Shown in pieces: positions 6,013 to 28,069 of a DNA stretch of 43,169 nt. The position numbers were made by a program, and so were the translations under genes. Every line of letters starts with the position of its first letter. Positions within the stretch are counted from its first letter, which is position 1. Source of the DNA: a virus. The notes under the pieces are model-generated. The model had not been told where the DNA came from. It saw only the letters and a program-made list of their open reading frames with translations, and made no database searches. The stretch lies in IMG/VR virus record IMGVR_UViG_3300050821_023943, positions 1-43,169 of that record, one strand, 5' to 3'.

Positions 6013-7524
6013 CTACGAATATGAAGCGAAGCCATAGCGCGGCTGTGGAGAAGTAACACCGTACTTGTAGGGCTTTGAGCCCGTGGTCACCGTGATCGTC
6101 TCGGCAATCTCCAATGCCTCATCAGCGACTTCAAGGTTTTCGGTCACGGTAGAGTCATCAACTGCCGTCTGGGACGCCTCCTGCTGCAGGATGCTCTGCA
6201 TGAGGTCCGTGAAGGTGACTACATCCGAGCCGATTGCCTCGATCTGGTATTCAAGCATCCCGTTGGCTCCAGGGGCATATCCAACCGCCGTAATGTCCTT
6301 GATGATAAGCGTATCGACAAGGCCAAAGGCAGGAAGGTCGAAGGTGATCGCCTGGCCGATCTTGCATCCGGGGACGAGAGTGTTGAATTTCACGTCCCAG
6401 ACCGGATGGCCAAACTGGAGGATCTGCGCGGTGGCGCGCGCTTGGGCTTCAGGGACGCTCAAAATCTTCGTATCCGTGATGACGCCCTGATATTCCCCGT
6501 AGGTCGCGATGCTCGACGCGTCAGAAGCATGGGCAACAATCGGAACTTTTGCGCTGCCGAACACTTTTACCGTCTGCCCGGTCGTAGGGGCTCCAGCAGT
6601 GAATTGAATCCACCGCTGCGCGTCGTTGTACATCACTTGAAAATCGGAAGGGTCATCTTGGTTGGCGATGCCGATGGTCTGGGGTACCCCGTTCAACGTG
6701 ACGGTCATCGGTGTCGTATCAAAAGCACTGGAATTCGCCTCGTAGGCATAGGACACGCTGAAGAACTGGGTAACGCCGTCCGTCATAAAAGTATCGATCG
6801 TGGTCAATGCAGTGAAGGTCTTGGTGTACGTTCCACCGATGACGTATACCGAGTTCTGCATGTTCGTCAGGTTCTGGTCCACGTCGAGCGAATTCCATTC
6901 GATGTCGGAGCCGGTATTTCCTCCGGTCGTATTCACGACGATCGGAGCAACACCTCCTTCGCCGACGCCGTCATCAACATCGCCCAAAAAGAAATGGATA
7001 TCCTTGTTCGCATCGATGTACCAATCCCAGCCGATGAGCGTCGCAAGGGATTGGAGCGCCTTTGATGGCTGCTGGTAATTGAACTTGATCGAAGGGATGA
7101 GGAAATTCGCGAACTGAACGTGGTTCGTCGTGAAACCCTTTGCGCCGAGGGGATCGGCCAATGCGACAATGGCCAGCACGATGTCGTGCGGGTCCATGTT
7201 GGCATAGTTCTGGCGGATGAGATTACCGTTGAAGAGATATCCCCAGTCGGTGCCCGTGATTTGCCAAGTGAGCATCAGGCCTTCGATCGTCGCTTCGGTT
7301 TCTGTCACGGTGCCAGCCCAGATGAGGCCGGTCGAATCGTAGAGATTGATCGTTTGACCGACCGTGGGAACAGTGACACCAGAAAGATTCGCGGCGTTCT
7401 GGCTGACCGTAAAGGTGCACGTTCCCACGTCCTTAGTGAGCTGTGACAGAGCAGAAATGCTTTTCCAGTTAACAGAGGAGCTGATGTCAGTGCCGTTGCA
7501 CTTTATAACGATTGGGTTCGGCAT
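6013..7524 (-). CDS. Tail hub / tail-associated (gp27-like) protein
   Basis: A 503-residue protein located immediately after the tape measure gene, where siphoviruses encode the distal tail or hub proteins. The N-terminus reads like a beta-barrel hub domain (VKCNGTDISSSVNW is similar to GTDVT-type hub starts; WAGTVTETE; GTDWGYLFN), and a phage-tail-like domain follows around residues 100-400. It probably forms the ring that closes the tail tube and bears the fibre. Its ATG overlaps the tape measure stop as TGATG. An upstream TTG would add one residue and is not preferred. No hydrolase motif is seen. Confidence 0.7.
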   Translation of the reverse strand: MPNPIVIKCNGTDISSSVNWKSISALSQLTKDVGTCTFTVSQNAANLSGVTVPTVGQTINLYDSTGLIWAGTVTETEATIEGLMLTWQITGTDWGYLFNGNLIRQNYANMDPHDIVLAIVALADPLGAKGFTTNHVQFANFLIPSIKFNYQQPSKALQSLATLIGWDWYIDANKDIHFFLGDVDDGVGEGGVAPIVVNTTGGNTGSDIEWNSLDVDQNLTNMQNSVYVIGGTYTKTFTALTTIDTFMTDGVTQFFSVSYAYEANSSAFDTTPMTVTLNGVPQTIGIANQDDPSDFQVMYNDAQRWIQFTAGAPTTGQTVKVFGSAKVPIVAHASDASSIATYGEYQGVITDTKILSVPEAQARATAQILQFGHPVWDVKFNTLVPGCKIGQAITFDLPAFGLVDTLIIKDITAVGYAPGANGMLEYQIEAIGSDVVTFTDLMQSILQQEASQTAVDDSTVTENLEVADEALEIAETITVTTGSKPYKYGVTSPQPRYGFASYS

Positions 7525-9326
7525 CAAACGGAATAGTTAGTTACGGGGCGCAAGCCGCGCAGGATTTGCTTCGCGAGCAGGTTGCCGATCTGCTTCATGG
7601 TCGAATCGTCTGCAGGAAAAATACCACCTTGGATTTGGATAATGATCTGTTGCTGTCCGCCGCCATAACCGCCTCCCCCGCCTGAAAGCGGTATGACGGC
7701 TTCCGGCCCGGATTCTCCGATGAGTGCCAACGTCGGCTGGGTCACTAATCCGCCTTCGGCAAGCATGGGAATGTCCGGGATGCTGAAACCGAGGTTCACA
7801 GCCGGCGTTGCGAGGCTCGTTCCTGGAATTTTGATTGATGGTAAGGAAATGTGAAGCGAGTCGAGCGCGTTGATAAAGCCATTAATGGCAGAGATGACAT
7901 CGTTTACACCGGTCTTGACTATATTTTCGATGGTCTGCCAAATGTTCTGAACGATGGTGCTCATGTCGGTCCACGAAGTCGTCCAGATAGTTTTGATGTC
8001 GTCGAGGCCGGTTTCAAAAAGCTGCTTCTGAGCATTCCAGGTGGTGGTGAAGAATGTGCTGATGCCGTTCCAAATGGTCTCCGTGTCGGTTTTGATGAGG
8101 TTCCAGTTATCGATGATGACCGCTGCCACCAGGGCCACGACGGCGGCGATTGCTAACGCTGCCGCCGCGAATGCAGAGCCGACGGCGGCGATAACAATGC
8201 CGACAAGGGTCATGACGGCGAGGAGCGCTGTAAAGACAACGATGCCCGCGACGAGCGCTTCGGTGAGTTTAGGATGTTCAGCCGTCCAATTTGCAATCCC
8301 CGTAATGATGGGCAAGAGAGCTTTTGCAAGCGCATCAAGGTCGGGAAGCAGATCATTGCCTACTTGCGTACCGAGTGACGTGAGTGAATTGTTGAGCTGC
8401 GTAAGCCCAGCGCCCGGTGCCTGCGCTGCCGTTTGCGCCATCCCGCCGACCTGGGCATTCAAGGCCTGGATGATGGCAGCATCGGCTCCAGCGGTATTGC
8501 CCACCTTCGCCATGTTCTCAATCATGGTGACAGTTGCGGCCGGGAATTGGATGGTGCCCTGCCGGATAAGCTGATTGAGTCCGGCAACCGGATCGGCAAG
8601 GGCATTTGCGAGGAGCTTCGTAGCGTTCGGTAGGTTATCGCTCAACGTCCCAGAGGTTTGGGACATCTTGGTCGCAAGATCAGCCGCAAGCAAGGTGAGG
8701 GATTGGTATGACCCCTGGAGGTCTTTGTTACTTAAAATCAGCCCTTCGGATTGGAGGGGTTGTTGGGTTAAAAGCGTCGTCGATTGGATCTGCTCGGCGT
8801 ACGCCTGGACCTGCGATACGGGGATTGACGAGCCGGTATCCTTGAGGGTCTGTGCAATGATGGCGGATTCCTCATCCCACGATTGAGCGGAAGTGATGGC
8901 GCTCGACACCGCGCTCTCTACCGCATAGAAGGCAATGCCCGCGGCAACCCCGATGCTCGTGAAACTGCCCTTCGACAGTTCGTTCGAAGCATCAACCTCC
9001 TCGTTGGCCGCAACGATTTCATCCGCGACTTCCTGTGCCGTCTGCCCCGTGGCTTCCATCTTGATCAGGATTTCGTCCTCAGCGAGGCCGGTGGCTTCGG
9101 CTGCCGCCTCAACAGACGCCATGAATTCGTTAAACGACGCGGTAGTCGAATCGACCATCGTCGTAACGGCTTGTGTTGTTCCCTCGAAGTTCGCGTCAAT
9201 TTCGCCAGTCGCCTCAGACGCGGCTTCCGACATGGCCGCCATCGACTCGCTTATCTGATCAAAAGAGGCCGACGCTTCATCGACTGCGGAGATGACAATT
9301 TCCAAGTTCGATTCGCCGTCGGCCAT
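7524..9326 (-). CDS. Tail tape measure protein
   Basis: This 600-residue protein sets tail length and is threaded through the tube before ejection. The N-terminal 150 residues are a long Ala/Glu/Ser-rich helix. A domain typical of tape measure proteins follows at about 150-320. A strongly hydrophobic block (about 355-405; Ala/Val/Ile runs) gives several membrane-competent helices, and the C-terminus has a Gly-rich turn (SGGGGGYGGGQQQ). Using the known rough scaling of 0.15 nm per residue, the tail would be near 90 nm (inference). Upstream lie the frameshifted chaperone genes, the usual order. There is no Shine-Dalgarno; the leader is A/C/T-rich. Confidence 0.9.
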   Translation of the reverse strand: MADGESNLEIVISAVDEASASFDQISESMAAMSEAASEATGEIDANFEGTTQAVTTMVDSTTASFNEFMASVEAAAEATGLAEDEILIKMEATGQTAQEVADEIVAANEEVDASNELSKGSFTSIGVAAGIAFYAVESAVSSAITSAQSWDEESAIIAQTLKDTGSSIPVSQVQAYAEQIQSTTLLTQQPLQSEGLILSNKDLQGSYQSLTLLAADLATKMSQTSGTLSDNLPNATKLLANALADPVAGLNQLIRQGTIQFPAATVTMIENMAKVGNTAGADAAIIQALNAQVGGMAQTAAQAPGAGLTQLNNSLTSLGTQVGNDLLPDLDALAKALLPIITGIANWTAEHPKLTEALVAGIVVFTALLAVMTLVGIVIAAVGSAFAAAALAIAAVVALVAAVIIDNWNLIKTDTETIWNGISTFFTTTWNAQKQLFETGLDDIKTIWTTSWTDMSTIVQNIWQTIENIVKTGVNDVISAINGFINALDSLHISLPSIKIPGTSLATPAVNLGFSIPDIPMLAEGGLVTQPTLALIGESGPEAVIPLSGGGGGYGGGQQQIIIQIQGGIFPADDSTMKQIGNLLAKQILRGLRPVTNYSV

Positions 9327-14073: not shown

Positions 14074-15309
14074 TTAGGACGCTGAGGTCGAGACGACGCA
14101 GAACGCCTTCGGCAGCACCACGACGAGCGCATGGCGGTGCTTGTAGATGATACCGGTCTGGTCAGCCAAACCGAGCTCTTTGCCCGCCCACACGCCTGAC
14201 TGGAAGTTGCCGATGCGCATATCGCCCTTGTCGCCGAACGCCAACGCTTTCATGTTTCCGAAGATCATGAAAGCTGTCGAAGCGTTCGTTGTGCCAACCA
14301 CATACGACGGGAGCCAGCGGTTCGTGAAAACCGGGAAGCCCATCATGTTGCCAGCTTTGCGGATCGGGCCGCCGGTCGGGTCTTTTTCAAGGCCCGAGTC
14401 GTTGGCTGCGAATGCTCCGAAGAACAGGAACGGCAAGCCGGAGGTTGAGGCCTCCTTCTGCGCGATCGCTGCCCATACGGTGCGGTGCATGTACCAAGCA
14501 CAGCCGTCCAAGATGGATTCCTCCATCTGGGCGACGACGTTCGACGCATCGACCACGGGGTCGAACTTGGAGTAGTTCGTGCCACCCGTTGCGAGCGTGT
14601 ACGTGTTGGTACCCGTGACCTGCATGATGCCCTGGAAAGGCCCCGGAGCGGTTGAAGAACCACCCACAAAGCCCTGCTGGTCGATCATGTTGGCCAACGC
14701 CTCACCTGCCATTGCTAAGAGCCACTCGCCGAGCGATACGGAGGAATCCGACAAAAGGTCGTTACCTACGACGAACGGGAGCTGCCACTTGCGGGCGATG
14801 AGGACGGCCTGGCCGAAGGTCAGACCCTGCACGGTCGAAGGAAGGTCAACGCCGACATACTGGCCCGTCAAAAACGCGCCGGTATAGTTCGGGATGCCCA
14901 ACTCGTCGGTCTTCATCGGCCAGTTCTGCGCTTGGCGCATAACGGTACCGACGGAAGCCGCGATACGCAAGATCGCCGCTGCGATTTCCGGTTGAACCAG
15001 ATAGCCGCCGCGATTATCCTGCTCTTCGATCAATGCCTCGTTCGCTTTGGTGACGGTCACCCGGACGGCTTTGGTCTCATGGCCCTTATAGGCCTCGATG
15101 ACCTGCGAAGCAAAATCTTTTTTTTGCTCCGAAGTGAGTCCGGTGATGTCCGTGCCCCTCAGGGAACGCTCGACAAGCATCGCTTCGACAACCTGGCGGG
15201 CGGTCTTTTTGGAGACCTCCTCCATGTTGGTGAGCGACTTTTCGAAAGCGTCGTTGAACGACGTGGCGACGGTCTCGCTTACGGCGGTCAACAATTTCTT
15301 TTCATCCAT
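14074..15309 (-). CDS. Major capsid protein, HK97 fold
   Basis: This 411-residue protein has the layout of HK97-family capsid precursors. A charged helical N-terminal delta region (about residues 1-100) is probably removed by the protease, followed by GGYLVQPEIAAAILRIAAS, WPMKTDELGIPNYTG and the family's typical EWLLAMAGEALANMIDQQGFVGG stretch, and a C-terminal MRIGNFQSGVWAGKELGL segment. It assembles the icosahedral head. The preceding gene encodes the matching protease and scaffold. No Shine-Dalgarno; the leader is A/C/T-rich. Confidence 0.9.
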   Translation of the reverse strand: MDEKKLLTAVSETVATSFNDAFEKSLTNMEEVSKKTARQVVEAMLVERSLRGTDITGLTSEQKKDFASQVIEAYKGHETKAVRVTVTKANEALIEEQDNRGGYLVQPEIAAAILRIAASVGTVMRQAQNWPMKTDELGIPNYTGAFLTGQYVGVDLPSTVQGLTFGQAVLIARKWQLPFVVGNDLLSDSSVSLGEWLLAMAGEALANMIDQQGFVGGSSTAPGPFQGIMQVTGTNTYTLATGGTNYSKFDPVVDASNVVAQMEESILDGCAWYMHRTVWAAIAQKEASTSGLPFLFFGAFAANDSGLEKDPTGGPIRKAGNMMGFPVFTNRWLPSYVVGTTNASTAFMIFGNMKALAFGDKGDMRIGNFQSGVWAGKELGLADQTGIIYKHRHALVVVLPKAFCVVSTSAS

Positions 15310-15332: not shown

Positions 15333-16232
15333 CTATTTGCCCGAAGCGTGAACTTCCTTGATCTTTTCGTTGATCTGGCGAAGAGCACCCTCCGAAGCAG
15401 TTTTGACCTGCCTCACGAGCCGCTGGGTAAAGAGATAGGTCTCCAATTCAGCACTTGCTCCCGAGGTGCTCGACCTTGAGTTCAGGGCCTTCTCGTCGTC
15501 GGACTCATCGTCCTTCGGCTTTTTGGAAGGTTCCTCCCCTCCGTCGCCGTCTTCAGAGCCCATGAGCTCTTTGATGGCCGCGGTTGTCTCGTTGTGATGG
15601 GATTCCATCTTTTCCAAGATGGCTTTCAGTTTCTCCTTGTTCTTCGCGGAGATGGCGCGCCCGGCTTTCTGCGATGATTCTGCGAGGGCTTTTTCTTCTT
15701 CAGATTTGCCGTCATCTTCGCCTTCGCCCATCTCTGCCTTCGCCATGTCCATATGGGCTTTCTCGTGGCGGTCAAGCTCAACGGCCATCGCCTTTTCGCA
15801 TTTCGTAAATGCCTGTTCGCGCTCATCAGAGCCATGAGCTTCTGCATGGTCGGCTTTGAATTCATCGATGGCCTTGTGGAACGCTTTGACGTGCTTCAAA
15901 TGTTCGGCTTTCATTTCGGACTTGAATTCATTGATGGCTTTCTCGTCCTTGTTCGGCTCGCGGCCCATCGTCTCGTAAGAATCATCGATGGCCTTCATGC
16001 ACTTTTTCAAATGCTCGCCGTGCTCTTCGTCGAGGGCGTCCTTGAACTCTTCGATGGCTTTCTCGTGCTCCGAATTGTCGTTCGCATCCTCGTCTTCCTT
16101 GTGCGCCTTGCCTTCGGTGGCACCTTCTTCATCGGCCATCGCTTTGGTGTCAAATTCGTCGATATGCTTTGCAACGGCCTTACTGTGCCGCTCATGTTCT
16201 GCTTTTAACTTTTTGGTGAGTTCGTTGTTCAT
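15333..16232 (-). CDS. Possible nested scaffold protein (internal start)
   Basis: An in-frame ATG at 16232 (MNNELTKKLKAEHERH) falls at the boundary between the protease part and the coiled-coil part. Lambda Nu3 is made from an internal start in the same way. No Shine-Dalgarno lies in front of it, but many genes here lack one. This is inference only; proteolytic release is equally possible. Confidence 0.3.
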   Translation of the reverse strand: MNNELTKKLKAEHERHSKAVAKHIDEFDTKAMADEEGATEGKAHKEDEDANDNSEHEKAIEEFKDALDEEHGEHLKKCMKAIDDSYETMGREPNKDEKAINEFKSEMKAEHLKHVKAFHKAIDEFKADHAEAHGSDEREQAFTKCEKAMAVELDRHEKAHMDMAKAEMGEGEDDGKSEEEKALAESSQKAGRAISAKNKEKLKAILEKMESHHNETTAAIKELMGSEDGDGGEEPSKKPKDDESDDEKALNSRSSTSGASAELETYLFTQRLVRQVKTASEGALRQINEKIKEVHASGK

Positions 16233-17297
16233 ATCAGTTTCTGTTTTTTGCGACTTGTCCCGTTCGGGAACGCAGATCATCTGGCCGGGGTCTTTGGGAT
16301 TCTCTGCGAGGACTCCCGGCGTCCCGTCATCCAGCTCGCAGGCATCCCCCACCTGGGGCGATTTGTTCACTGGTTCCATGAGCTCGGGACTTTTTTTTAG
16401 AATGTCGAATAGCTCGATGGCTTTCTCATAGTCCGGCGCCTCCTTGCCGAACTCGGCGTAATGGCGTTTTAAGTGCGAATACACCGCCTTCTTATCCCCT
16501 TCCGGGATCTTCACGCCGCCGCGCGAGCCCATCAAGGCGCCCATCGCAGCCGCAACGCCGCGCCAATTCGCTTTCATGCTCTCCGCCTCGTGATGGGGCA
16601 GTTTGTATGCTGATTTCTTGTCTGCGTTTTCGCCATCAAACCACGCGCAGATGGATTTCAGTTTGTCGAGGTCATCACCACATGCTTTGACTTGTGCCGG
16701 GCCGTCCCACGCAGCATCGGTATCTTCCTCGATGCCATGCGACTTGTAGGGGACCGGACCTTTGGTGGCGAACGAGAGCCCTTTCATCACGAGCTCCGCC
16801 ATGTTGAGGTTCATCCGTTTTGTGTCGCGGATGGACAAGGCAAAGGGATTTGCCGGAACGGGGACGAAGCTGAACTCCAGAAGTTCAAGCTCTCCGTCCT
16901 CGTGCTGGATATACCCTACGGACGTGGTGTTGATGTAGCCCGCTTCGTACAAGCCAGCGATTTCGCCGGCAAATGAATTGAGTTCAGAGGGAGCAAATTT
17001 GCCTTCTGCGACGAGCTTCCCGTTTTGGATTGAGATGCCGGTGCAGATGCCGATCGGCGGGGTGGAATAGTCATGCGCCCAGAGGACGACGGGGTTCTTC
17101 TCATAATTGTCGAGCTTCCACTTGGACTGGTCGATCATATCGCCCTGCCGGTCCTCGTCTGAAGTCGAGATGATTACTTTGAAGGTGCCGCCGTCCTCTG
17201 CGGCTTTGATCCCTGAAACGACTGGCTGGTTCTTAAGGAGGGCTGCTTGGAAGTCCTTGAGGAGTTCTGCCGAGAATTGTTTTAGTGATTCTTTCAT
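15333..17297 (-). CDS. Prohead protease fused to capsid scaffold
   Basis: A 654-residue fusion. Residues 30-150 are an HK97 U35-type prohead protease with His75 (VLWAHDYSTPP) and Ser126 (NTTSVGY) as catalytic candidates. Residues about 195-295 carry a domain often appended to phage proteases (YKLPHHEAE, WRGVAAAMGALMGSRGG, KKAVYSHLKRHYAEFGKE). From about residue 355 to the end is a highly charged coiled-coil scaffold with repeated units around EKAIEEF, EKAINEF and HKAIDEF. Scaffold and protease would guide and then mature the capsid shell. An in-frame ATG at 16232 could give a separate 299-residue scaffold. GGAGG sits just before the start. Confidence 0.85.
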   Translation of the reverse strand: MKESLKQFSAELLKDFQAALLKNQPVVSGIKAAEDGGTFKVIISTSDEDRQGDMIDQSKWKLDNYEKNPVVLWAHDYSTPPIGICTGISIQNGKLVAEGKFAPSELNSFAGEIAGLYEAGYINTTSVGYIQHEDGELELLEFSFVPVPANPFALSIRDTKRMNLNMAELVMKGLSFATKGPVPYKSHGIEEDTDAAWDGPAQVKACGDDLDKLKSICAWFDGENADKKSAYKLPHHEAESMKANWRGVAAAMGALMGSRGGVKIPEGDKKAVYSHLKRHYAEFGKEAPDYEKAIELFDILKKSPELMEPVNKSPQVGDACELDDGTPGVLAENPKDPGQMICVPERDKSQKTETDMNNELTKKLKAEHERHSKAVAKHIDEFDTKAMADEEGATEGKAHKEDEDANDNSEHEKAIEEFKDALDEEHGEHLKKCMKAIDDSYETMGREPNKDEKAINEFKSEMKAEHLKHVKAFHKAIDEFKADHAEAHGSDEREQAFTKCEKAMAVELDRHEKAHMDMAKAEMGEGEDDGKSEEEKALAESSQKAGRAISAKNKEKLKAILEKMESHHNETTAAIKELMGSEDGDGGEEPSKKPKDDESDDEKALNSRSSTSGASAELETYLFTQRLVRQVKTASEGALRQINEKIKEVHASGK

Positions 17298-17317: not shown

Positions 17318-17872
17318 TTAGTAGGGGAGCTGGTCAAATGAAATGCGGAGAATGGTCGTCGTCGGAACTGTAAGGCTGGCGCCCGTGCCGTTCGTGTAAG
17401 CAATCCATGCGGTGCCGGTAACGCCGTTCGTGGAAGTCAGAATGCAGCCGGAGATAAATACCGTCGTAGTCGCCGTGCTGCCGCTGCAAATCGCTCCCAG
17501 GCTCAATCCGAGTGTTTCTGGAATAGTTATCGTCGTACTCGCTGATGAAGTTGTTGAACCGAATGCTGCAAGGGTAGCCGCCGTGGACGGAGTTCCCGAT
17601 GCCATTACATACGCCGTAAGGCCGTGGTACTGATCGGAACCGCCGACGCTCAATCCGTTCTGGGCGTCGTCTGCTAATGAGCCGGCCGGATAAATGTAAC
17701 CATTGCCGGTCAGACCGCCGGTGGTCGTCGCCGCATGCAGCTGAGGAGTGATGCCTCCCGAAAAGTCGCCGCCGGTAACTGGGGCAGCGAAGAGATGCGC
17801 ACCGACGATACCGCCAACCAACGCTACTGCGAGAACCGCTATCAAACCTCCAATGATTGTTTTGTTATTCAT
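17318..17872 (-). CDS. Exported Thr/Ser-rich protein (signal anchor)
   Basis: The 184-residue product starts MNNKTIIGGLIAVLAVALV, a clear membrane segment or Sec signal, with a likely cleavage near LFAAP, and continues as a Thr/Ser/Gly-rich beta protein with ATTTGG, TTSSAST and TATTTVF runs. Such proteins with TTT/TST runs remind me of surface proteins of Parcubacteria-type genomes. An AAAGGTCG element (17892-17899) lies 19 bases before the ATG. A signal peptide is unusual for a gene placed between tailspike and protease genes. It may be displayed on the host surface rather than in the virion. Confidence 0.6.
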   Translation of the reverse strand: MNNKTIIGGLIAVLAVALVGGIVGAHLFAAPVTGGDFSGGITPQLHAATTTGGLTGNGYIYPAGSLADDAQNGLSVGGSDQYHGLTAYVMASGTPSTAATLAAFGSTTSSASTTITIPETLGLSLGAICSGSTATTTVFISGCILTSTNGVTGTAWIAYTNGTGASLTVPTTTILRISFDQLPY

Positions 17873-17891
17873 GCCTTTACTGTAATGTTTG

Positions 17892-17899
17892 CGACCTTT
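17892..17899 (-). promoter_or_regulatory. AAAGGTCG element, copy 5
   Basis: 19 bases before the start codon at 17872. Confidence 0.6.
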
Positions 17900-17929
17900 A
17901 TTGGGAAGATAGCGAGGGTGTGTATAACT

Positions 17930-18268
17930 TCAGTTGTTCGATTTCGGGAGGGAGGGTTCGACGATGATCTTCACACCGTTCCACGTGAGGACCTCGGTGG
18001 ACCACGTCGCTGTGATCTGGGCAAGGAATGTTCCGGGGCTCGGGAAGTTTCCGGAAGCCACCAAGTAGTGGCAGGTGCCGGAGCTGGCACTGTCCACGGC
18101 CATTGCACCGCTGAATAACGCAGTTTGGGTCGGGTCTTGGCTGTCCTGCACGGTAATGACAAGCGACGAAATGCCGGTAAGGTTCACGGCGTTGCCGCTG
18201 CCGTCTTCAAGCGTAAAGGGAAGCTGGTAACCATAATCCCCTTGGGTAACGATTTGGGGCTGGATCAT
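17930..18268 (-). CDS. Small Ig-like/baseplate-upper-like domain protein
   Basis: A 112-residue beta-rich protein: VTQGDYGYQLPFTLEDGSG then NLTGISSLVITVQD, and a final strand NGVKIIVEPS. The beginning resembles the N-terminal domain of phage BppU-type or fibre adaptor proteins (QGDTGY…LKDANGNPVDLTG). It may adapt the neighbouring surface or spike proteins to the virion. The ATG overlaps the previous gene's stop as ATGA. Confidence 0.55.
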   Translation of the reverse strand: MIQPQIVTQGDYGYQLPFTLEDGSGNAVNLTGISSLVITVQDSQDPTQTALFSGAMAVDSASSGTCHYLVASGNFPSPGTFLAQITATWSTEVLTWNGVKIIVEPSLPKSNN

Positions 18269-18462
18269 AATTCGAGGGTGGTTTGGTTTGTTTCGGGATC
18301 AGAGAGCGTCATGGAGCGGAAGCGGAGCATGAGGGCGAGCTGGGAAATGCCGGTCTGAAGTATCCGCATCCCAAGCATGACAAGGGGCGCAATCGGCGCG
18401 AAGGAAGAGCTCTGTCGCTCCGATCCGTACGTATTGGTTCCGTAGCCAGAAAAGCCGTACAA
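18265..18462 (-). CDS. Small Gly/Tyr-rich protein with hydrophobic helix
   Basis: A 65-residue protein beginning YGFSGYGTNTYGS, followed by a hydrophobic stretch (APIAPLVMLGMRILQTG). The frame opens with TTG at 18462 and no closer ATG fits, so the start is uncertain. The ATGA overlap with the gene at 18268 supports that it is translated. Function unknown. Confidence 0.45.
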   Translation of the reverse strand: MYGFSGYGTNTYGSERQSSSFAPIAPLVMLGMRILQTGISQLALMLRFRSMTLSDPETNQTTLEL

Positions 18463-18526
18463 GGTAGTAGTGAATTAGTTATTTATGAAGACGCTAGCAA
18501 TCGACACGGCCTTGTTCGGGTTCTTT

Positions 18527-19732
18527 TCATTGGAATATGACATGACCGACGAATTTAACAATTCCGTTCAGCCAATCGTCGAGATTGGGCGGAATCACGC
18601 CAAACGCTGTTTCTGTTCCGATGTGGTAGAAGCCAGTCGAGGTAGCCGCATCATCAGGAGCGTTCTGGTTGTTATACTCCGTCGTGATCCATTGGGACGT
18701 AAGCGGGGTTTGTGAGAGCCGTAGTTCGGACATAGCGCCGGTTAATTCACCATTCGCGACACCATTTTGTCCAATCTTAAATCCTGGCTGTCCAGCGGGG
18801 AATGAGCTTGCAGTGAATGTTCCGAGCGTAGAAGTAGTTAATAATTTCGCATTCTGATAAACAGACCATAAGTTCGTGCTTGAGTTCGCTACGATGGTGA
18901 GTTGCGCCCATTTACTGGTACTTGCGACTGGCGTGAAGGGACCAAGACGCGAACCACGAAATGTGCCTTCATAGATGCTACCTCCAAAGCTATAAAAGTT
19001 CGCATCACCGTTAGCGACGCTCCATATTCCTTGCGTACCACCGCCATTTGCTCTCACCCACATCTCTAGCGTCGCCTGTCCGGCAGTAAAGGGATTGGAG
19101 ATAGTTGTAGTTGCAGAATCGGGATTCGCTCCATTGAACGCGGTGCCGTTCCCGAAGGGAGTTGTCGTTGCCCCAAAGGTAAGTGTGCTGACTTTGGTGA
19201 AGTTCTCAGCATTCACCGTGCTATCGCTCGCATTATAGAGATGCCACACGCCGACATAGTTCGAGTTCCAGGTCGAAGTCGGGTTGCTCTGGTCAGTGTT
19301 CACTGCTGAAGCGTCATAGCACGCGTAGATGACCGTTCCTGTCTGTAGGGTCGGGATGTTCACCCAGTCACGTAGTGCGCCAGTGGAAGATGAGTAGGTT
19401 TGCGTTTGAAAATTGAGGTATCCTCCTGCAGTGCAATTGGCTGACGAGGTAGCAAAAACCAAATCGCATGGCTCCTGGATACCGCCGGGTGCCGTGCAAA
19501 GGTTTTGGATATCGCCTCCATGAGATGATGACTCCCAAGAAGTGAGCGTTGAAGAAACCAGCATGGGGAAATTGGTGTTCGTGCCAGATGCGATGGAAGC
19601 AGTGGAAGTTACCGTAATAGTGCGGTAGAAGGAAAACGATGCGGCTAACGCTTGCGGAGAAAATTGGATAAACGAAACGACCGCGCCGATCGCGATGAGG
19701 AGGAGGTAGATTGTTCGTGCTTCGTTTTTCAT
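18527..19732 (-). CDS. Exported DUF2341/LamG-like protein
   Basis: This 401-residue protein has a signal peptide (about residues 1-30, ending in QALAAS). A DUF2341-like domain follows at about 31-150, with FYRTITV, FPMLVSS, DLVFATSS and WVNIPTLQTGTVIYACYD. A LamG/concanavalin-type domain comes next, with YVGVWHLYN, GTAFNGAN, ATLEMWVRANGG and LRLSQ. This pairing is typical of secreted bacterial proteins that bind sugars or surfaces, and I associate the TST-rich style with Patescibacteria. Its start overlaps the stop of the larger surface protein as TGATG. Either it is a virion adhesin or it is exported to the host surface. Confidence 0.65.
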   Translation of the reverse strand: MKNEARTIYLLLIAIGAVVSFIQFSPQALAASFSFYRTITVTSTASIASGTNTNFPMLVSSTLTSWESSSHGGDIQNLCTAPGGIQEPCDLVFATSSANCTAGGYLNFQTQTYSSSTGALRDWVNIPTLQTGTVIYACYDASAVNTDQSNPTSTWNSNYVGVWHLYNASDSTVNAENFTKVSTLTFGATTTPFGNGTAFNGANPDSATTTISNPFTAGQATLEMWVRANGGGTQGIWSVANGDANFYSFGGSIYEGTFRGSRLGPFTPVASTSKWAQLTIVANSSTNLWSVYQNAKLLTTSTLGTFTASSFPAGQPGFKIGQNGVANGELTGAMSELRLSQTPLTSQWITTEYNNQNAPDDAATSTGFYHIGTETAFGVIPPNLDDWLNGIVKFVGHVIFQ

Positions 19733-22700
19733 CAGAGGCAAGTTGAGGTGCTTAGCTGCCACGCAATCGTACTCGATACCTGAAAGTCGGCGTAGACGAT
19801 GGTTGTACCCGATGCTTGACTCGGGGTCATTTCCAGGCAGCCCGTTCGGTATGTTGAGGTTGCCGTTGAGGTCGCGCCGATCATCACGGTCGAGGTCTGT
19901 TGAGTGGGACTCCACGTATAGAGCTGGACACCGCCAGACGTCGTCGTAGTGCCGACGGATAATGCAGTCGCAATCGTCGTCGTACCCGTTATCGAAACGG
20001 TACCCGTGGCGACCACATTGCCGACGGTAATCGTCTGGGCAAATCCTGGCGCGCCATCGGATCGCAGGAATGTGGTCGCTGAACCATTAATCGGTGCCTG
20101 ACTCGTGATTAACCCAGTTGGATTAGCGCCTGTTCCACCCCCGCCCGAAGGGGTTGACGTCGAGACGAGGTTTTTATTCGCATCGAAATAAGCAAAACTA
20201 TTGGCATTTACAGTGCTTGTCGAGGCGCGAAACGTTCCTGCTGATACGACCGTTGACGAGGTATCTCCATAGGTGCCATCATTGTTGAACTCCATCACTC
20301 CCGCCGATGGGTTCGCTTCGTAAACATCTATTGCTGTCGAGGGGAGTTGCCATTCGATAGTAGATGAACCAGTGGTATTATCATTATAGTTCGACATCAA
20401 CATACGGCTACCATTGTAGAGATTCAATTGCCCCTGGCTGTTGATTGATGATGGGAAATTAGTTCCTGTGATTCCCTCTAAGACAGTATTCACATGCGCA
20501 GTATTCGCCACGTTAAAGTTTCCCTGACTCCCCGTTTCCCAAAGGTTTGTACCGTCAGACCAAAATTGGAATGACGTTTGCCCTCCTCTCGGTGCCCAGT
20601 TACCAACAGGGATAGAATTACAGAGCTCCCATGAATCCGAAGCCGAGCAATAAACCGGGTTGGTTGAAGTTGGCCATGTGACATTGACTTCTTGTGGCAC
20701 CGATATAAGTGTCGAAGTATTATTGATGATTACATTGACAAACTGATTCAGGGGAAGGTTGAGGAAGGTCGGAAGCACACTGAATAAAGTGGTCGTCGTA
20801 TCGAGGGCTTCACAGGTGCTTGAGCTGGCAAAATTACACGAGAAGGCGCCCGTGCTGCTATTGATGAGGGTCGTGAATCCCGGATTAAGAGCAACCGTCC
20901 CTGTCGTATTGATGGGATTCGGTGACGTCGTAATGCCAAAGCCAGGGTAGATGCCGGAGACGGTGCCGCAAGTCGTGGTTGCTACTGCGCCAGCTGTTCC
21001 GATATCAAGACACGGGTTTCCCGAAGAACCAAGAGATGTAATGGAAAGATAGGTGGTCGTCGCACTGCCCTTCACCGTAGTAGAGCCCACGGTCAAAGTT
21101 CCCTGAATAGTGGATGCCCCAGTTCCAGCGTAAAGGCTACTCCAGCGATTGCTCGCGGTACCGAGCGGAATAGTATTGTCGAGCCCTGATGAGGGAGCCA
21201 CCGAACTTGTCGCAATGGAAATTACATCCTGATACGTCCCGCCTCCCGCAGGAAGTTCGAAATCAATTTGGTTCCATGAACCTGACTGGCAACCGATGCG
21301 CAATGCATTGAACGTGCTATCGAGATACTGGAAGCAGGGTGGATTGCTCCCGTTGATAGTGACTCCATTTGCGAAAGCAATAGGAGTTCCCTGGATTGCA
21401 TAAGACGTTCCGACGGCGACCGGTCCTTGCGTTGTCTCAGCCCCGTTCACCTGAAGCTGGGAACCGTTGTCCGTCGTTGACGTTCCCACTTCGACATTGC
21501 CGCCGTTCGCCTGAAGAACTAATAAACGAAGCGAACCACTGCCAGATTGTTCGGTGCTGACATTCGCAAATCCATTGACGGATTTTCCAAGATGGAGGCA
21601 TTCGTAGTTCGATCCTCCCCCTGAAGCATTGATGTCGTTCGAACAAATGTCTTCCCACGCCGCGCCGTAGATGTTATTACCGAAGGCATTCGTTGTTGTG
21701 TTTCCGTGCGGGAAAATGTCGAACGCGATAGAGGTATTGGTGGCGATGGGGGTTACATAGGGGACAGGGATACCAACACTCTGCCGGCCACCGAAGGCAA
21801 ACGTGTCAGATGCGTTCGTATCGGGCGCCTCTTGGAGGGTACCGCTCGCAATCGAGAGTACTTCGGTTGAACTCGTATAGGTCAGTTGCGAAAAACCGGT
21901 AAGGGTTCCCGACGTATTGAAAACAGCGACGTAGGTCGAAGTAGATGGCCCAACGGTACCTGATCCACCTGCTGTGACTGTGATTGCGGTCGAAGTTGTG
22001 GTTGTGGCCACGGAGCATCCCGAAATACAAGTAACTGCATAGGTTACCGTGCCAGTATTGGTGTTGAATGAGGTAACACCGGTATTCGTGAATGTCCCTG
22101 TAGCTCCTGAAACCGAATAGGAAATGCCTGTACCTACCGAGAAAAGAAATGGATTGATGAGCTGCCATGAGCCATTCAGATAGACCAGGGAACCTGTTGC
22201 GTTCGCTGGGATCGGCGATCCGTTGAGGCCGATGACTTTATACACTGGCGTGAGAGAAGTTGCGCCTAATGCGGTGCCTGACACATCCCCCGACGGCGTA
22301 AGCGTTATCGTTTGATTGCCTGAAATGTAGGCGCTCGGATTGCTTGCAAGATAGAACGTTGTCGAATTCACACCCTGCCAGGTGCCAGCCCAGTTGCCGG
22401 TGTTGATGATTGAAAAGGTCGTGGTGGCGCCGCCCACCGTGCTCGTGACCGTCGTACCGTCGCCGATGATATGGAACACCGCTGCTTGCTGCCCATTGAT
22501 TGTCGTCGTGGCAATCACCGTCGCTGCAATAGTCACGCTGCCTGACGCATTTGTAATCAGGATATTTGTACCGGGCGTCAGCGTTGCCGGTGTATAGGTG
22601 CCGGAGCCATTGCCGATAAGGACTGTCCCCGATGCCGGAGTAAGATTCGATCCAGTGCCACCAGCGGGAGGAAGCAAAAGCGGCGTATATGCCAACGCCC

Positions 22701-22767
22701 GCAGCGCTCCGATGCCGAGAAACACCGTTGCCACTGCCACTGCAAAAGCCCAGGTTCCTTTCTTCAT
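19732..22767 (-). CDS. Large exported Thr/Ser-rich surface or fibre protein
   Basis: A 1011-residue protein with a signal peptide (MKKGTWAFAVAVATVFLGIG … ALAY) followed by about 980 residues of Thr/Ser/Gly/Asn-rich beta repeats. Phrases such as GNWAGTWQGVN, TGLITSQAPINGS, TTTIATALSVGTTTT and SSTIAWQLSTSTCL are the style of Parcubacteria surface proteins. It ends in a Cys-containing beta domain (YRTGCLEM … STSTCL). The leader is A/T/C-rich without a Shine-Dalgarno. As a phage gene it could be a fibre acquired from the host surface-protein pool, or a cell-surface protein expressed during infection. The signal peptide favours export. Confidence 0.65.
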   Translation of the reverse strand: MKKGTWAFAVAVATVFLGIGALRALAYTPLLLPPAGGTGSNLTPASGTVLIGNGSGTYTPATLTPGTNILITNASGSVTIAATVIATTTINGQQAAVFHIIGDGTTVTSTVGGATTTFSIINTGNWAGTWQGVNSTTFYLASNPSAYISGNQTITLTPSGDVSGTALGATSLTPVYKVIGLNGSPIPANATGSLVYLNGSWQLINPFLFSVGTGISYSVSGATGTFTNTGVTSFNTNTGTVTYAVTCISGCSVATTTTSTAITVTAGGSGTVGPSTSTYVAVFNTSGTLTGFSQLTYTSSTEVLSIASGTLQEAPDTNASDTFAFGGRQSVGIPVPYVTPIATNTSIAFDIFPHGNTTTNAFGNNIYGAAWEDICSNDINASGGGSNYECLHLGKSVNGFANVSTEQSGSGSLRLLVLQANGGNVEVGTSTTDNGSQLQVNGAETTQGPVAVGTSYAIQGTPIAFANGVTINGSNPPCFQYLDSTFNALRIGCQSGSWNQIDFELPAGGGTYQDVISIATSSVAPSSGLDNTIPLGTASNRWSSLYAGTGASTIQGTLTVGSTTVKGSATTTYLSITSLGSSGNPCLDIGTAGAVATTTCGTVSGIYPGFGITTSPNPINTTGTVALNPGFTTLINSSTGAFSCNFASSSTCEALDTTTTLFSVLPTFLNLPLNQFVNVIINNTSTLISVPQEVNVTWPTSTNPVYCSASDSWELCNSIPVGNWAPRGGQTSFQFWSDGTNLWETGSQGNFNVANTAHVNTVLEGITGTNFPSSINSQGQLNLYNGSRMLMSNYNDNTTGSSTIEWQLPSTAIDVYEANPSAGVMEFNNDGTYGDTSSTVVSAGTFRASTSTVNANSFAYFDANKNLVSTSTPSGGGGTGANPTGLITSQAPINGSATTFLRSDGAPGFAQTITVGNVVATGTVSITGTTTIATALSVGTTTTSGGVQLYTWSPTQQTSTVMIGATSTATSTYRTGCLEMTPSQASGTTIVYADFQVSSTIAWQLSTSTCL

Positions 22768-22792: not shown

Positions 22793-25732
22793 TTATGCGA
22801 CTATTTTCCAATTCGCGCCATCCGACACCATGGTGATAGCCGAGTACTGTGTGACCAAGGGCTGGGTTGACGCGCCGTCTATCGTCTGGGCTGATGTCGT
22901 GGCAACGGTAATTGTTCCTGTGCCGCTATTTTTGACGGTATACGTCTTGCCGGAAACACTCACCGCAGTCGGGAGCGTCGCCGTGAAGGTTCCCGAGGTG
23001 CAATCTACCATCTCGTCGGTCGTCTTAATGGCATACGTTCCCGTCGCGGCGACGTATGCTTTTCTTCCGATGATGACGCCCGCAGTGCTCACCGTCCCGA
23101 AAGCGCCTGTACTGTTGGTCCATCCGTCACTCGTTGCTGCGATTGAACCGACCACGTTCGTGACAGAAGAACCCACATTATTGAAACCATGCCACGTCAC
23201 AATCCCCGATCCCTGGATGGTGCAGAACGAGGTGACAGTCTGTCCCCCAAAAGCGCGGGTGATGACTCCCGTGAGGGTGACCGTTCCTCCGTTCAAAATG
23301 AAAGTCGTCGGTGAGTTGCCGGACGTGGTCGAGTCGTTGAAGAACACGCAACCGACAAAATTGACTTGCGTGGCTGGGTTGTCGTCGATGACCACATAGT
23401 CGTATGGCCCCCATGCAGTGTTGCCGGGGTTCTCAAAATGTGTGCCGATGAAGGTCACGTTGTTCGCCTGCTGGATTCTGACCTGGCAGTCATCGAAGCT
23501 GCCGCCAATGATCGTGAGAGACGCCACAGCCGAGTTGTCGATGAAGAATCCGTTCGTGGGGGAATTACCAGCCGGATCTACACAGAAGACGTTCAGGAAC
23601 GTGATGCCCTCGCCAGAGTTCGTGACGCTCGCATCCGTGCCACCGAGGTACATGTTTTGCCCGCAGTTTCTGAAAACGACATTTTCAAGCGCCCACATGT
23701 AGGTATTCGATCCTTGTACGAGTCCTTGGCCAAACCCCTCAATCTTGCAGAAGTTAACGATCGCGCCCGCTGCTCCGTTCGTACCACCGAGGAAAACTCC
23801 CACTTCTGGGTTAGTGGTGGAAGTGTTGTTGCCTTTGAGCGTGATGTCCCTCATGACCTCGTACTTCGCGTGTTCCGAACTCGCACCATCGCCCTGATAG
23901 CCGCAGTTGACAGTAACTGCTTTGGTGCTTGAACCACCCGTGAACGTAAGAATCGTACCGTCGCCTGGTGTGCCGCGAAGGCTCGCACGTACGCCGTCAG
24001 TGCCAAAGACAATGGGAGTCGAGAACGAGAAGCTCCCGGCCGGGATCGTGATGATGACGGATTTGAGACCCGCAGCGACGGCGGTCGCATAAGCTGCGTT
24101 TACGGCACCTCCGATATCATTGGAGCCGGTTAAGAATGTCGATGCGTCGAGGACTGTATTGAAACTGCGTGCTACGAGGAGCCCGGCTGGCGATAGGGAA
24201 GCATACGCGCCCGTGCCGTTCCACCACGCGGAGGATGCGGAAGTCGTACCTGCAACATTCGTAACGGCAGTGGCAATATTCCTAAAACCAATCCAGCGAA
24301 AGGCGTCTGCTGATGAACCGTTGAGGGAAATAAGAAAGGTAGAAACTGTTGAACCACCATTATTGACAGCCGTCACGCCAAACATATTCACCTGGCAACC
24401 CGCTTGAATGAACGTGGTCGGGGCGGATGTTGTCGCGTCCTGCACAAACGTGGTGTTGACTATGTCAATAGTCACGGCTGCCGAACTGGTGCTCCCGAGC
24501 GTCGTGATGAAGCAGTAAGCCGAGATTGAGTTAGCGGCAGGGTTTTCAAAATGGCAGTTGGTGATATGGATGTCGTTCGCCGTGCCACCGCTCTTGTTAA
24601 TGTAAAGCTCAACGTCGTCAAAAGAGCAAGCTATGAAATTCCAGTCGGTAACACCCGAGTTTTGGAGGTTGATTCCGTACCGCGCTGCGGACTGGCCACC
24701 GATCTGGTTATTCGAATCAGCGAACGTGCAGTTGATGCACCGCATGTTTTCTCCGGCATTCACCGTATTCGTGCCGCTCGTACCAAAGCTCGCGCCCGCG
24801 CCCGCGCCGCCAAGCTCGTAGAGCAGGACTCCGTTGAAATTAACGACACAGTTATCGAGCGTAAGCAGGAAGCAGTTATTGCCGGTTTCGATTCCAAACC
24901 CGAAGTTTTGGACGTACACATCGCGAAGCGTTCCGCCTGCAAAACCCTGCCCGTCGTCCGCGCCGATGCCACCGAGGAAGAGGCCGATGGTCGAACCTGC
25001 TGATCCCGGACCACTGAACTTGATGCCCTGGATTCCCATGCCTGGCTTCACCGCCTTAGTAGGATTGATCCAGCAGGCGCAGGTGTTCGCCCCACCAGTC
25101 CAGGTAAGGGTTGTCGAGCCGCCCACGCCGCCCAAAAGGAGCGCTGGCTTCTCGGCGGTCGTAATCGCGATCATCGTTGAATAGCTGTGGTTGCCCTGTG
25201 GAACGATGATGGTGCCGCCCGCTGCGGGCAATGCCGCATACGCCGCGTTAATCTGTGCACCCATGTCAGCACCGGAGTAGAGCGCAGCGAACTCAAATGC
25301 GCCCTCCAGTGCGGCGATTGCCGCTAGGGCCGGGGTGAGCTCCGTGTTTATGGTTGACACGTCGCTCGTAAGCGTCGTGATGTTGCTGGTATTCGCACTG
25401 ATCTCACTCCCGATGTCCGTGATCATCTTGGCGGTGATGCCGAGCATGATCTGGTAGGTCTTCCCGGCCGTATTCTTGGTTGAAGCCGAGGTGCCTTCCT
25501 GCGCGCGGGTGATCGTGAGCGTATTACCTGATACCACAGTCACCCTGACGATCTCCGCGTTCGGGTCGTTCGATGGGTCGGGATAGTCGGTCGAGTTCCA
25601 CCAGGTCATGTTGAAACTCGGAGAGGGCAGCAAAGAACCGCCAACAGAAAGGACGATGGTCGTATCAGACGAACCGTATCCGGTGCTCACCGTCAGCTTT
25701 ATGAAATTGGCGACGGGATCGAGTGTTGCCAT
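22793..25732 (-). CDS. Tailspike with duplicated pectate-lyase-like beta helix
   Basis: The 979-residue protein has an N-terminal adaptor (about 1-135, including ITRAQEGTSAST, a common phage tail motif, and a short coiled coil), then two tandem right-handed beta-helix domains. Copy 1 begins near DMGAQINAAYAAL and copy 2 near DIGGAVNAAYATAV. Each contains GVFLGG/GLFLGG, a FGxGxxxGxN turn and SFDD-V…THFENP/CHFENP. A C-terminal domain with TYTVKNSGTGTITVATTS is widely used in tail proteins. Such spikes bind or cleave polysaccharide. It lies between portal and head genes rather than after the tail genes, which is unusual. Catalytic residues cannot be assigned by eye. Confidence 0.75.
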   Translation of the reverse strand: MATLDPVANFIKLTVSTGYGSSDTTIVLSVGGSLLPSPSFNMTWWNSTDYPDPSNDPNAEIVRVTVVSGNTLTITRAQEGTSASTKNTAGKTYQIMLGITAKMITDIGSEISANTSNITTLTSDVSTINTELTPALAAIAALEGAFEFAALYSGADMGAQINAAYAALPAAGGTIIVPQGNHSYSTMIAITTAEKPALLLGGVGGSTTLTWTGGANTCACWINPTKAVKPGMGIQGIKFSGPGSAGSTIGLFLGGIGADDGQGFAGGTLRDVYVQNFGFGIETGNNCFLLTLDNCVVNFNGVLLYELGGAGAGASFGTSGTNTVNAGENMRCINCTFADSNNQIGGQSAARYGINLQNSGVTDWNFIACSFDDVELYINKSGGTANDIHITNCHFENPAANSISAYCFITTLGSTSSAAVTIDIVNTTFVQDATTSAPTTFIQAGCQVNMFGVTAVNNGGSTVSTFLISLNGSSADAFRWIGFRNIATAVTNVAGTTSASSAWWNGTGAYASLSPAGLLVARSFNTVLDASTFLTGSNDIGGAVNAAYATAVAAGLKSVIITIPAGSFSFSTPIVFGTDGVRASLRGTPGDGTILTFTGGSSTKAVTVNCGYQGDGASSEHAKYEVMRDITLKGNNTSTTNPEVGVFLGGTNGAAGAIVNFCKIEGFGQGLVQGSNTYMWALENVVFRNCGQNMYLGGTDASVTNSGEGITFLNVFCVDPAGNSPTNGFFIDNSAVASLTIIGGSFDDCQVRIQQANNVTFIGTHFENPGNTAWGPYDYVVIDDNPATQVNFVGCVFFNDSTTSGNSPTTFILNGGTVTLTGVITRAFGGQTVTSFCTIQGSGIVTWHGFNNVGSSVTNVVGSIAATSDGWTNSTGAFGTVSTAGVIIGRKAYVAATGTYAIKTTDEMVDCTSGTFTATLPTAVSVSGKTYTVKNSGTGTITVATTSAQTIDGASTQPLVTQYSAITMVSDGANWKIVA

Positions 25733-25735
25733 TGG

Positions 25736-28069
25736 TTAGATGCTGATTTGGTCAGGCCGGAGATAGCACATGCAGTTGGGATGGAGAGGCGGAAAACCAA
25801 CATCGCCGTAATCGAGCGACATAGTTGCGGAGCCGTCAGCGTTCGAAACCGAATCGCCGTTTTTGAAAAAGACATCATCGATCGGAATCGTCTTGCCGTC
25901 CATTGTCTGGCAGAACGGGCATGGATTATTTGCGGTGTACCATCGCACCGTCTTTACGACGCCTGACTGTTTCCATGCCTCTTTGAGCGCACTATTGGCA
26001 CTCCTAAATGACTCGGTCTTTGCAACCATGGGTGCCCTGCTGTTATTGCTCCATTCGTATATCTCCTCAACGCGCTTCGTGATGTCGGCCAATGACTCAC
26101 CTGCCTGGAGTCCGTCGTTGATGTGGGACTCCAAGGTATTGAGGGTCGTGCCTTGATAGCTCTCGGACATCATCTGCACTGACTCGTGGACTGCGTCCCT
26201 CGTTGCTTGGGTGAAATCGAAGGTTGAATCCACTTCTGCGGCTGCCAACTTTGCCTGCTCGGAGAACAGCGTCTCAACGATTGGCTCGATCGCGTTCACC
26301 GTGATCGAGATCCACTTCTCCTTGTCGAAGAGGTCGGCGGGGTTTACTGCTTTCACGACGTTTGGCAGATGCTCAAGCACCTCCTTTTTCTGCTCGGCGT
26401 TGATCTTCTGCATCGTTTCGTCGATGTCTTTTTCCGCTGCGTGGACGTACTCGCTCCACTCCTTCCAGCGCTGTTCGTCCTGTTCTTTCGTGGATTCGAA
26501 TTTCTTTGAAGGGCGGGCGAGCCGTTCGGCAAGGTCAGCTTTGATCTTTTCGCCGAGCGATGTGCGCTGCTCCGCGCGCTTCTTTGCTAAGGTCTGTAGT
26601 TTCGTTCTGGGCGGCCGGTATCCCACACGAAGGCCGTTCGCGGCTTTCGCTTCCGGCTTGAATAGTTTTATATGCTTTGCGTTCGGGTCGTTCTCCGCCT
26701 GCGGCGCAACATCCCCTGCATCTGGGTTTGCTTCGCCTGCCGGCGCCATCGCAGTCGGGGACATCAATACATCACCGCCGTCCACCGGACCCAAGCCCAT
26801 GAACTGGTCGCGCGCTTCGTTCACGGTTAAAAGCGGCTGGCTGCCAACGGATGCTTGCATTTCGGTCGTCCTGAATGCCTTGTCTTCCGGCACCGGATCG
26901 ATGAAGGAAATGTAGAGGTCATCGCCGTAGCGGGGAACGAGACGGTCATTGAGCGTCGCGCAGATGTTCATCATGTGGGGCTTGACAACACGCTTGCTAA
27001 ATACGTAATCCGCTGTTTCAGCTGTGGCCCGGTTCGTATCCGATTCCGCCGTGCCTAAGATTGTTCTCGACACGCCGAACATCGCAAGGATGCGGTCGCG
27101 CATGTCCTCGCTCATATTCTTGAAGTCCATGTCCTTCGGGCTTGCCCCTGACGGCGCCCATTTCACGCCCTTGGGCAGCACACCGATGCGGTTCATGTTG
27201 TCGATGCCGCCGTGCGTATCGGTGAATCCAATCTTCAAAGCATCTAACTGTGTTTCAGCAACGAAATCGCTTTCAAGGAATCCAGCCGGACGGGCGCCGT
27301 TGATAAAGAACTTCCGATTGAACTCCATCGCGTAATTGTCGTTGTCGATATACTCAGCTCCCGCCATCACGGGGCTATAGCCCTCGTGGTAGTTCTGCAC
27401 ATTGGGCAGACGGAAGTGGATGATCTCATATGGATGAAACGCCATCTCGGTGGTTTCGAGCTTCAGCTTGTAAGCGACGATCTGATACGGCCATGAGCGG
27501 CGGTCAATAACCGGTCGGACTTTATCGACCGGCATTAGGTGGAGCGCTTTCGGCTCGTCGAGGTCGTTCTTCACGCCTTCGAGCCAGACATAAGCATTGC
27601 CCGCCAGGTCAAGGCAGGAGGACAGGAGATACTTGAACTCCAGCCCGTTCATATGGTCGCTTGGTGCGTCCAGGAGGTCGAGGATGTCGTTGTCCTTCTG
27701 CTCCTCGTGGTCTTCGCCCTTCACTTCGAATAACCGCCAGTCAATCGCCATCACCTCGCGGGCTTTGGCGTTTACGGCTGCATAGACGAAACCTTTGTTG
27801 TTGAGGATTGCCCGCTCTGCGCTGATGGGATTACTGCCGGACGGGCGCTCGATCGCCATCGAATTCGAACCGCCCGCGAATTCTCCGAACTTTTTACCGA
27901 TGATGTTGCCGTCTTTGTCTTTGACGAGCTGGGTGTTCACGAGACCCCAGCGGGACATCTTGATCTCTTCCTGCTCGAACATCTCCGGCCAGATGTTCGC
28001 TGCGATGCCCTTAATACGCTTGGCAATCCAGCTTGGCTTCTGATTGGCGTTGAGGGAAGGTGAGGGCAT
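25736..28069 (-). CDS. Portal protein fused to MuF-like domain
   Basis: A 777-residue fusion. Residues about 60-450 are an HK97-type portal (FVYAAVNAKAREVMAIDWRLF; DLLDAPSDHMNGLEFK; FKNMSEDMRDRILAMFGV; EARDQFMGLGPVDGG). The middle is charged and helical. The last 130 residues carry a Mu F-like head morphogenesis domain with VAKTESFRSANSA, NPCPFCQTMDGK and FPPLHPNCMC. The portal forms the vertex for DNA packaging and tail attachment; MuF is normally a separate gene. The two Cys-x2-Cys/His clusters could bind metal. The leader has no Shine-Dalgarno. Confidence 0.9.
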   Translation of the reverse strand: MPSPSLNANQKPSWIAKRIKGIAANIWPEMFEQEEIKMSRWGLVNTQLVKDKDGNIIGKKFGEFAGGSNSMAIERPSGSNPISAERAILNNKGFVYAAVNAKAREVMAIDWRLFEVKGEDHEEQKDNDILDLLDAPSDHMNGLEFKYLLSSCLDLAGNAYVWLEGVKNDLDEPKALHLMPVDKVRPVIDRRSWPYQIVAYKLKLETTEMAFHPYEIIHFRLPNVQNYHEGYSPVMAGAEYIDNDNYAMEFNRKFFINGARPAGFLESDFVAETQLDALKIGFTDTHGGIDNMNRIGVLPKGVKWAPSGASPKDMDFKNMSEDMRDRILAMFGVSRTILGTAESDTNRATAETADYVFSKRVVKPHMMNICATLNDRLVPRYGDDLYISFIDPVPEDKAFRTTEMQASVGSQPLLTVNEARDQFMGLGPVDGGDVLMSPTAMAPAGEANPDAGDVAPQAENDPNAKHIKLFKPEAKAANGLRVGYRPPRTKLQTLAKKRAEQRTSLGEKIKADLAERLARPSKKFESTKEQDEQRWKEWSEYVHAAEKDIDETMQKINAEQKKEVLEHLPNVVKAVNPADLFDKEKWISITVNAIEPIVETLFSEQAKLAAAEVDSTFDFTQATRDAVHESVQMMSESYQGTTLNTLESHINDGLQAGESLADITKRVEEIYEWSNNSRAPMVAKTESFRSANSALKEAWKQSGVVKTVRWYTANNPCPFCQTMDGKTIPIDDVFFKNGDSVSNADGSATMSLDYGDVGFPPLHPNCMCYLRPDQISI

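Follow-up and report, generated by a model that had tools for sequence, protein, structure and literature searches.

The block of genes lying between the portal and capsid genes of the window (the whole 43,169-base stretch of DNA analysed, which is a virus record of IMG/VR) appears to form a single conserved cassette of late genes in a lineage of temperate siphoviruses of Acidobacteriota, and at least two of its products would leave the cytoplasm by the Sec pathway. The explanation that we tentatively prefer is that late-made, exported and disulfide-stabilised fibre-like adhesins, together with an inner-membrane protein, interfere with phage adsorption or entry, either in the envelope or at the time of lysis. 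The cassette points to a conserved, multi-gene way for tailed phages to equip the envelope of the host with fibre-like proteins, probably late in infection, in a phylum from which few phages have been isolated. It raises a testable question, whether these proteins are weapons against other phages, protect the progeny, or are fibres that are put together outside the cytoplasm.

The three T/S-rich genes of the block are all found on the minus strand, at the positions given in the earlier note, and a Sec-signal/transmembrane heuristic run over the whole window returns, among T/S-rich proteins, the products of these three genes only (Table 1). The placement of the block in the head gene cluster, also proposed in that note, is borne out, as it sits between the portal/MuF gene and the genes encoding the protease-like and major capsid (MCP) proteins. 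Cassette genes abut or overlap with tight spacing, the start of the LamG gene sharing one base with the stop of the upstream gene, and promoter-like sites occur in the cassette at chance level (8 versus 8.6 expected). Nothing thus indicates that the cassette is transcribed as a unit of its own, and it is likely to be co-transcribed late with the head genes. Pfam detects nothing in the large protein or small184 and nothing above cut-off in gp112, and neither fiberN nor gp112 has a significant match in the PDB.

Table 1. Cassette genes and their boundaries, in window positions.
Feature	Positions	Strand	Details
Portal carrying a C-terminal MuF domain; bounds the cassette upstream	25736..28069	-	Pfam Phage_portal 1.8e-54, Phage_Mu_F 1.4e-12; signal in 0/38 homologues
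979-aa non-exported fibre: fiberN (aa 1-113) and two tandem beta-helix domains	22793..25732	-	
Large fibre-like protein, 1011 aa, probably exported	19732..22767	-	Sec signal aa 1-26 (22690-22767)
LamG protein, 401 aa, variable slot, probably exported	18527..19732	-	Sec signal aa 1-30 (19643-19732)
YGF, small conserved protein, about 65 aa, no signal	18265..18462	-	Homologues at the same position in about 20 relatives
gp112, small protein, no signal	17930..18268	-	49-75% identical in 14 relatives
small184: N-terminal TM anchor, flexible linker, predicted beta-sandwich, 2 Cys	17318..17872	-	Anchor aa 3-27 (17792-17866)
Protease-like/scaffold protein, downstream boundary of the cassette	15333..17297	-	Weak PHROG head maturation protease match (8.8e-4) and position
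HK97-type major capsid protein (MCP)	14074..15309	-	Pfam Phage_capsid 9.2e-24

As a single-sequence search of IMG/VR with the large protein gave no match, relatives were gathered with the MCP, 54 of them in IMG/VR and three in genome contigs. Among phage records there is no close match to the MCP and only distant ones to the portal, and the search of viral databases proposed in the earlier note, performed by tblastn of the large and LamG proteins against 50,697 phage records, returned no match. Wherever the interval is visible in the relatives, the same order recurs: portal, fibre-adaptor (about 186 aa, without signal), large protein (464-1684 aa, with signal), a variable slot holding zero to two signal-bearing proteins (the LamG protein in the window), YGF, gp112, a small184-like protein with an N-terminal hydrophobic helix, protease-like protein and capsid. 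On the capsid tree, the cassette is present in 35 of the 40 members of the clade. Homologues of fiberN are 52-84% identical in 18 relatives, and a homologue has PHROG tail-fibre matches. The large and small proteins change faster than the capsid; the large protein in particular is hypervariable, being alignable over only 12-29% of its length between phages whose MCPs are 65-85% identical, a variability that resembles that of a specificity determinant.

The nearest relative in a cellular genome, whose capsid is 65% identical, is an integrated prophage (L057) of a soil acidobacterium, on a 232-kb contig of an Acidobacterium MAG (Acidobacteriaceae). It is flanked on both sides by host genes with 70-73% identical orthologues in other members of the family, its tyrosine integrase adjoins tRNA-Met, and both prophage ends (116,013 and 168,104) carry the tRNA end as a direct repeat of 23 bp. 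The reading frames of its cassette are open, with four signal-bearing proteins that all have even numbers of cysteines. The capsid tree places this prophage and the window in the cassette clade, whereas the Patescibacteria clade has no cassette: L058, L059 and L077, relatives from Patescibacteria genomes, lack it. In L078, over the short stretch covered, the portal directly abuts the protease-like gene; the short stretch covered in L079 leaves the portal side outside view. The host of the window is thus probably a member of Acidobacteriota, judging from its relative with a 65% identical MCP. For the Tunturi viruses of Acidobacteriota, possible cultured kin, the text mentions neither signal peptides nor portal proteins (PMC11924767).

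The large protein starts with a signal ending in ALRALA ahead of YTP and the LamG protein with one ending in SPQALA ahead of ASF; small184 has a hydrophobic N-terminal helix without a clear cleavage site. The signal-peptide check suggested in the earlier note gave a consistent answer when performed by the heuristic: a signal with an AxA site is kept in all 27 homologues of the large protein and a signal or anchor is called in 34 of 37 small184 homologues, versus 0 of 225 proteins in six families (TerL, portal, fibre-adaptor, with 0/26, gp112, protease-like and MCP). At least two of the three signal-less small184 homologues are explained, by a wrong longest-ORF start in L039 and by a gene cut by the contig end in L041.

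Cysteines point in the same direction. Their number is even in 59 of 61 mature cassette proteins, as compared to 47 of 104 other phage ORFs (of at least 200 aa). The even counts are distributed as 24/25 for large proteins (4 to 30 cysteines each, with C-x3-C repeat motifs in several of them that keep the count even on copying, so that not all events are independent), 18/18 for small proteins and 17/18 for hand-listed variable-slot proteins, the first two sets being taken after dropping sequences more than 70% identical; among the controls, they are 12/30 for protease-like proteins, 7/13 for portals and 3/12 for gp112. An even-cysteine criterion is reported in earlier work on DsbA substrates (PMC7678975). 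Moreover, in the beta-helix alignment, the exported homologues gain or lose cysteine columns in pairs, and neither beta-helix copy of the non-exported fibre of the window has the main pair intact. Even numbers and paired co-variation argue for disulfides and for real export, and the cassette proteins are, on their signals and cysteines, likely to be exported. Checking cysteine parity is also inexpensive, and could reveal exported fibres of this kind in the genomes of other phages.

The large protein carries a GGTG/TYTPA fibre motif, and 14 cysteines in its mature part. Its C-terminal domain, with two conserved cysteines, is 85% identical to a protein of the acidobacterial prophage, but the DNA there is only 73% identical; a recent exchange of this domain between the two is thus rejected, and these values fit an old divergence under strong conservation. 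Unrelated phages, too, have fibre-like proteins with the GGTG motif, and most of these proteins are signal-less. In L165 (9905-11666), a contig in which no portal or capsid relative was found, a GGTG fibre-like protein is signal-bearing and cysteine-free over a stretch running to the locus end.

The two beta-helix halves of the 979-aa fibre match each other (E 9e-34) and also match proteins of ten relatives (E 4e-33 to 2e-9), which are exported wherever their start is visible. For the exported protein of L023, AlphaFold predicts a beta-helix (501 residues modelled, with good confidence up to about residue 360), which Foldseek matches to phage tailspikes and polysaccharide-active enzymes (best E 1.9e-5); its predicted fold is similar to those of the HK620, Klebsiella K2-2 and CBA120 tailspikes. 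A domain of the fibre/tailspike type is thus found on exported proteins of the relatives, and in the window on the non-exported 979-aa protein and on none of the three exported ones. These matches suggest that one receptor-binding-type domain is borne by a non-exported fibre here and by exported proteins in relatives. To our knowledge, known tailspikes have virion-attachment domains and lack a Sec signal. A signal-bearing fibre-like protein is also encoded downstream of the tail genes in L008 (G810:C1 10667-12550), L039 (G813:C1 10722-13430) and L031 (from 20012); phages with such a protein past the tail genes include some with a reduced head cassette or none, and L045 has no such protein.

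For small184, AlphaFold gives a helix at residues 3-27 and a confident beta domain at 86-180, predicted to be a beta-sandwich outside the cytoplasm; a fold search of the PDB and BFVD gave no match at E<=0.001. Among its homologues (alignment A2), the C terminus comes in two alleles, FDQLPY and CFHTGV, which differ between close capsid relatives (L003 versus L004/L005), and the second cysteine moves with the allele. L031 carries a tandem pair of small184-like genes (7168-8345).

From this anatomy, we infer the location, timing and function of the cassette products. The large and variable-slot proteins would be fibre- or tailspike-like adhesins, whose signals are cleaved and which fold with disulfides in the periplasm; small184 would remain anchored in the inner membrane, and its beta domain would lie outside the cytoplasm. 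As they are encoded with the capsid genes, these products should build up during virion assembly and come out at lysis. Small184 could act at the inner membrane to block entry, and the fibres, once exported, could occupy or alter the phage's own receptor, in such a way that superinfecting phages and fresh progeny would not be lost on infected cells or debris. An export or membrane-targeting N-terminus, typical of superinfection-exclusion proteins, is indeed present. Two points nevertheless weigh against this explanation. The cassette lies among late genes, with a promoter signal not above chance, and such a late-operon placement is less suited to superinfection exclusion than expression early or from the prophage would be. 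Furthermore, no outer-membrane anchor, barrel or secretion signal is found on the cassette proteins, and this explanation does not account for how, in a diderm host, the large fibres would get to a receptor on the outer surface. Of the two options of the earlier note, exported fibres and proteins of the host surface, the former fits the sequence better, since the search for an outer-membrane anchor or a barrel gave neither. The receptor masking or adhesion suggested in that note may nonetheless occur.

Several known systems share part of these features. T4 Spackle, a periplasmic superinfection-exclusion protein (PMC7677548), is, by its description, likewise phage-encoded and active in the envelope, and provides a precedent for periplasmic exclusion. 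It is, however, a single early gene product, which inhibits the gp5 lysozyme, has neither fibre nor lectin domains and is encoded outside the head cluster. Proteins of the T5 Llp and HK97 gp15 type are envelope-located, lipid- or TM-anchored, and protect infected cells or progeny; they are encoded by single small genes, whereas the cassette is multi-gene, located in the late region and has large fibre-like members. No described phage system with the anatomy of this cassette was found in the open-access literature searched, in keeping with the earlier note's view of a largely undescribed strategy.

The cassette could alternatively act in lysogenic conversion, the prophage expressing these proteins in lysogens and changing host adhesion, surface properties or phage sensitivity, as Lom-like morons do. 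In the Acidobacteriaceae relative, which is a genuine prophage, the reading frames of the cassette are open, the variable slot resembles cargo, and the faster change of the small and large proteins relative to the capsid would agree with such a role. Lambda Lom and Bor are, moreover, signal-bearing and located among the virion genes of a temperate phage; they are, however, sporadic and separately transcribed, whereas the cassette is conserved and looks co-transcribed. As the moron hallmarks (own promoter and terminator, sporadic presence) are not seen, with promoter-like sites at chance, abutting genes and a presence in most of the clade, we regard lysogenic conversion as somewhat unlikely.

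Another possibility is that the large and variable proteins are virion fibres which are exported, oxidised in the periplasm and joined to capsid or tail adaptors (fiberN, gp112) at lysis. This would agree with the presence of non-exported adaptor-like proteins in the cassette, with the fusion of the beta-helix to the adaptor in the window where relatives have separate adaptors and exported beta-helix proteins, with a location among head genes and a hypervariability like that of receptor-binding proteins, and with the lack of a visible envelope anchor on the large protein. Such an assembly is nevertheless unlikely, as it leaves over the membrane anchor of small184 and as no precedent was found in the open-access papers searched; nor do we know of one for post-lysis exported fibres in tailed phages. 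We consider quite unlikely a two-compartment fibre, in which adaptors would be mounted on capsids in the cytoplasm and Sec-exported, disulfide-bonded tips would join them at or after lysis.

Fibre motifs, tailspike-like domains and the similar signal-less GGTG fibres of unrelated phages might also suggest ordinary virion fibres, whose hydrophobic N-terminal segments would be unused for export. Tail fibres are expected to be cytoplasmic and without Sec signal, unlike these three proteins with their conserved signals and paired cysteines; the invariable AxA signal of the large protein, the even cysteines of nearly all cassette proteins and the lack of signal in most unrelated GGTG fibres make this disfavoured reading improbable.

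The LamG protein, with 4 cysteines, contains a Laminin_G_3 domain (Pfam E 2.5e-7) and has homologues in L005 and L010. Of the two domains that the earlier note had recognised in it, LamG is thus confirmed; Pfam does not detect DUF2341 in the window at E<=0.1, nor in two homologues at E<=1, although the full-length profile aligns this region with many Patescibacteria proteins. This profile matches 33 of 192 Patescibacteria genomes, many of them over the full length, versus 17 of 199 Acidobacteriota genomes, 4-5 times larger and mostly matched on LamG only. At least one of these Patescibacteria LamG/DUF2341 surface proteins starts with a signal-like segment; they are cellular genes, whereas the phage copy lies in a head cluster and its nearest prophage relative is acidobacterial. 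A horizontal origin is plausible for the LamG gene alone. The resemblance to Parcubacteria surface proteins, put forward in the earlier note, therefore holds, at the level of Patescibacteria, for the LamG protein; a link between the phage and Parcubacteria is not supported. For small184 and the C-terminal domain of the large protein, an origin in Patescibacteria is unsupported, with matches in 0 of 240 and 0 of 126 genomes, respectively, in searches that both lacked a positive control. That the block encodes Parcubacteria-derived host-surface proteins in a Patescibacteria phage is thus very improbable: the LamG architecture is common in Patescibacteria and sister phages infect them, but these two empty, uncontrolled searches, the cassette-clade prophage in Acidobacteriaceae and the absence of the cassette from Patescibacteria-hosted relatives all speak against it.

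The variable slot has other contents elsewhere. In L046 (5245-8605, GC 38%), from a sister group near the Patescibacteria clade, it holds two other signal-bearing proteins, with 10 and 2 cysteines. Short hydrophobic tails, e.g., LDDWLNGIVKFVGHVIFQ, LDYQFAANLKLTGNAIFR and LWLIGRYLQVIGRNLFIR, recur at the C terminus of variable-slot proteins whose bodies are unlike; they are seen in the window (18527-18590) and in the variable-slot proteins of L005, L010, L031, L046 and L057, and may be a tag for attachment or sorting. Tails of a second type end in ALFFAGD.
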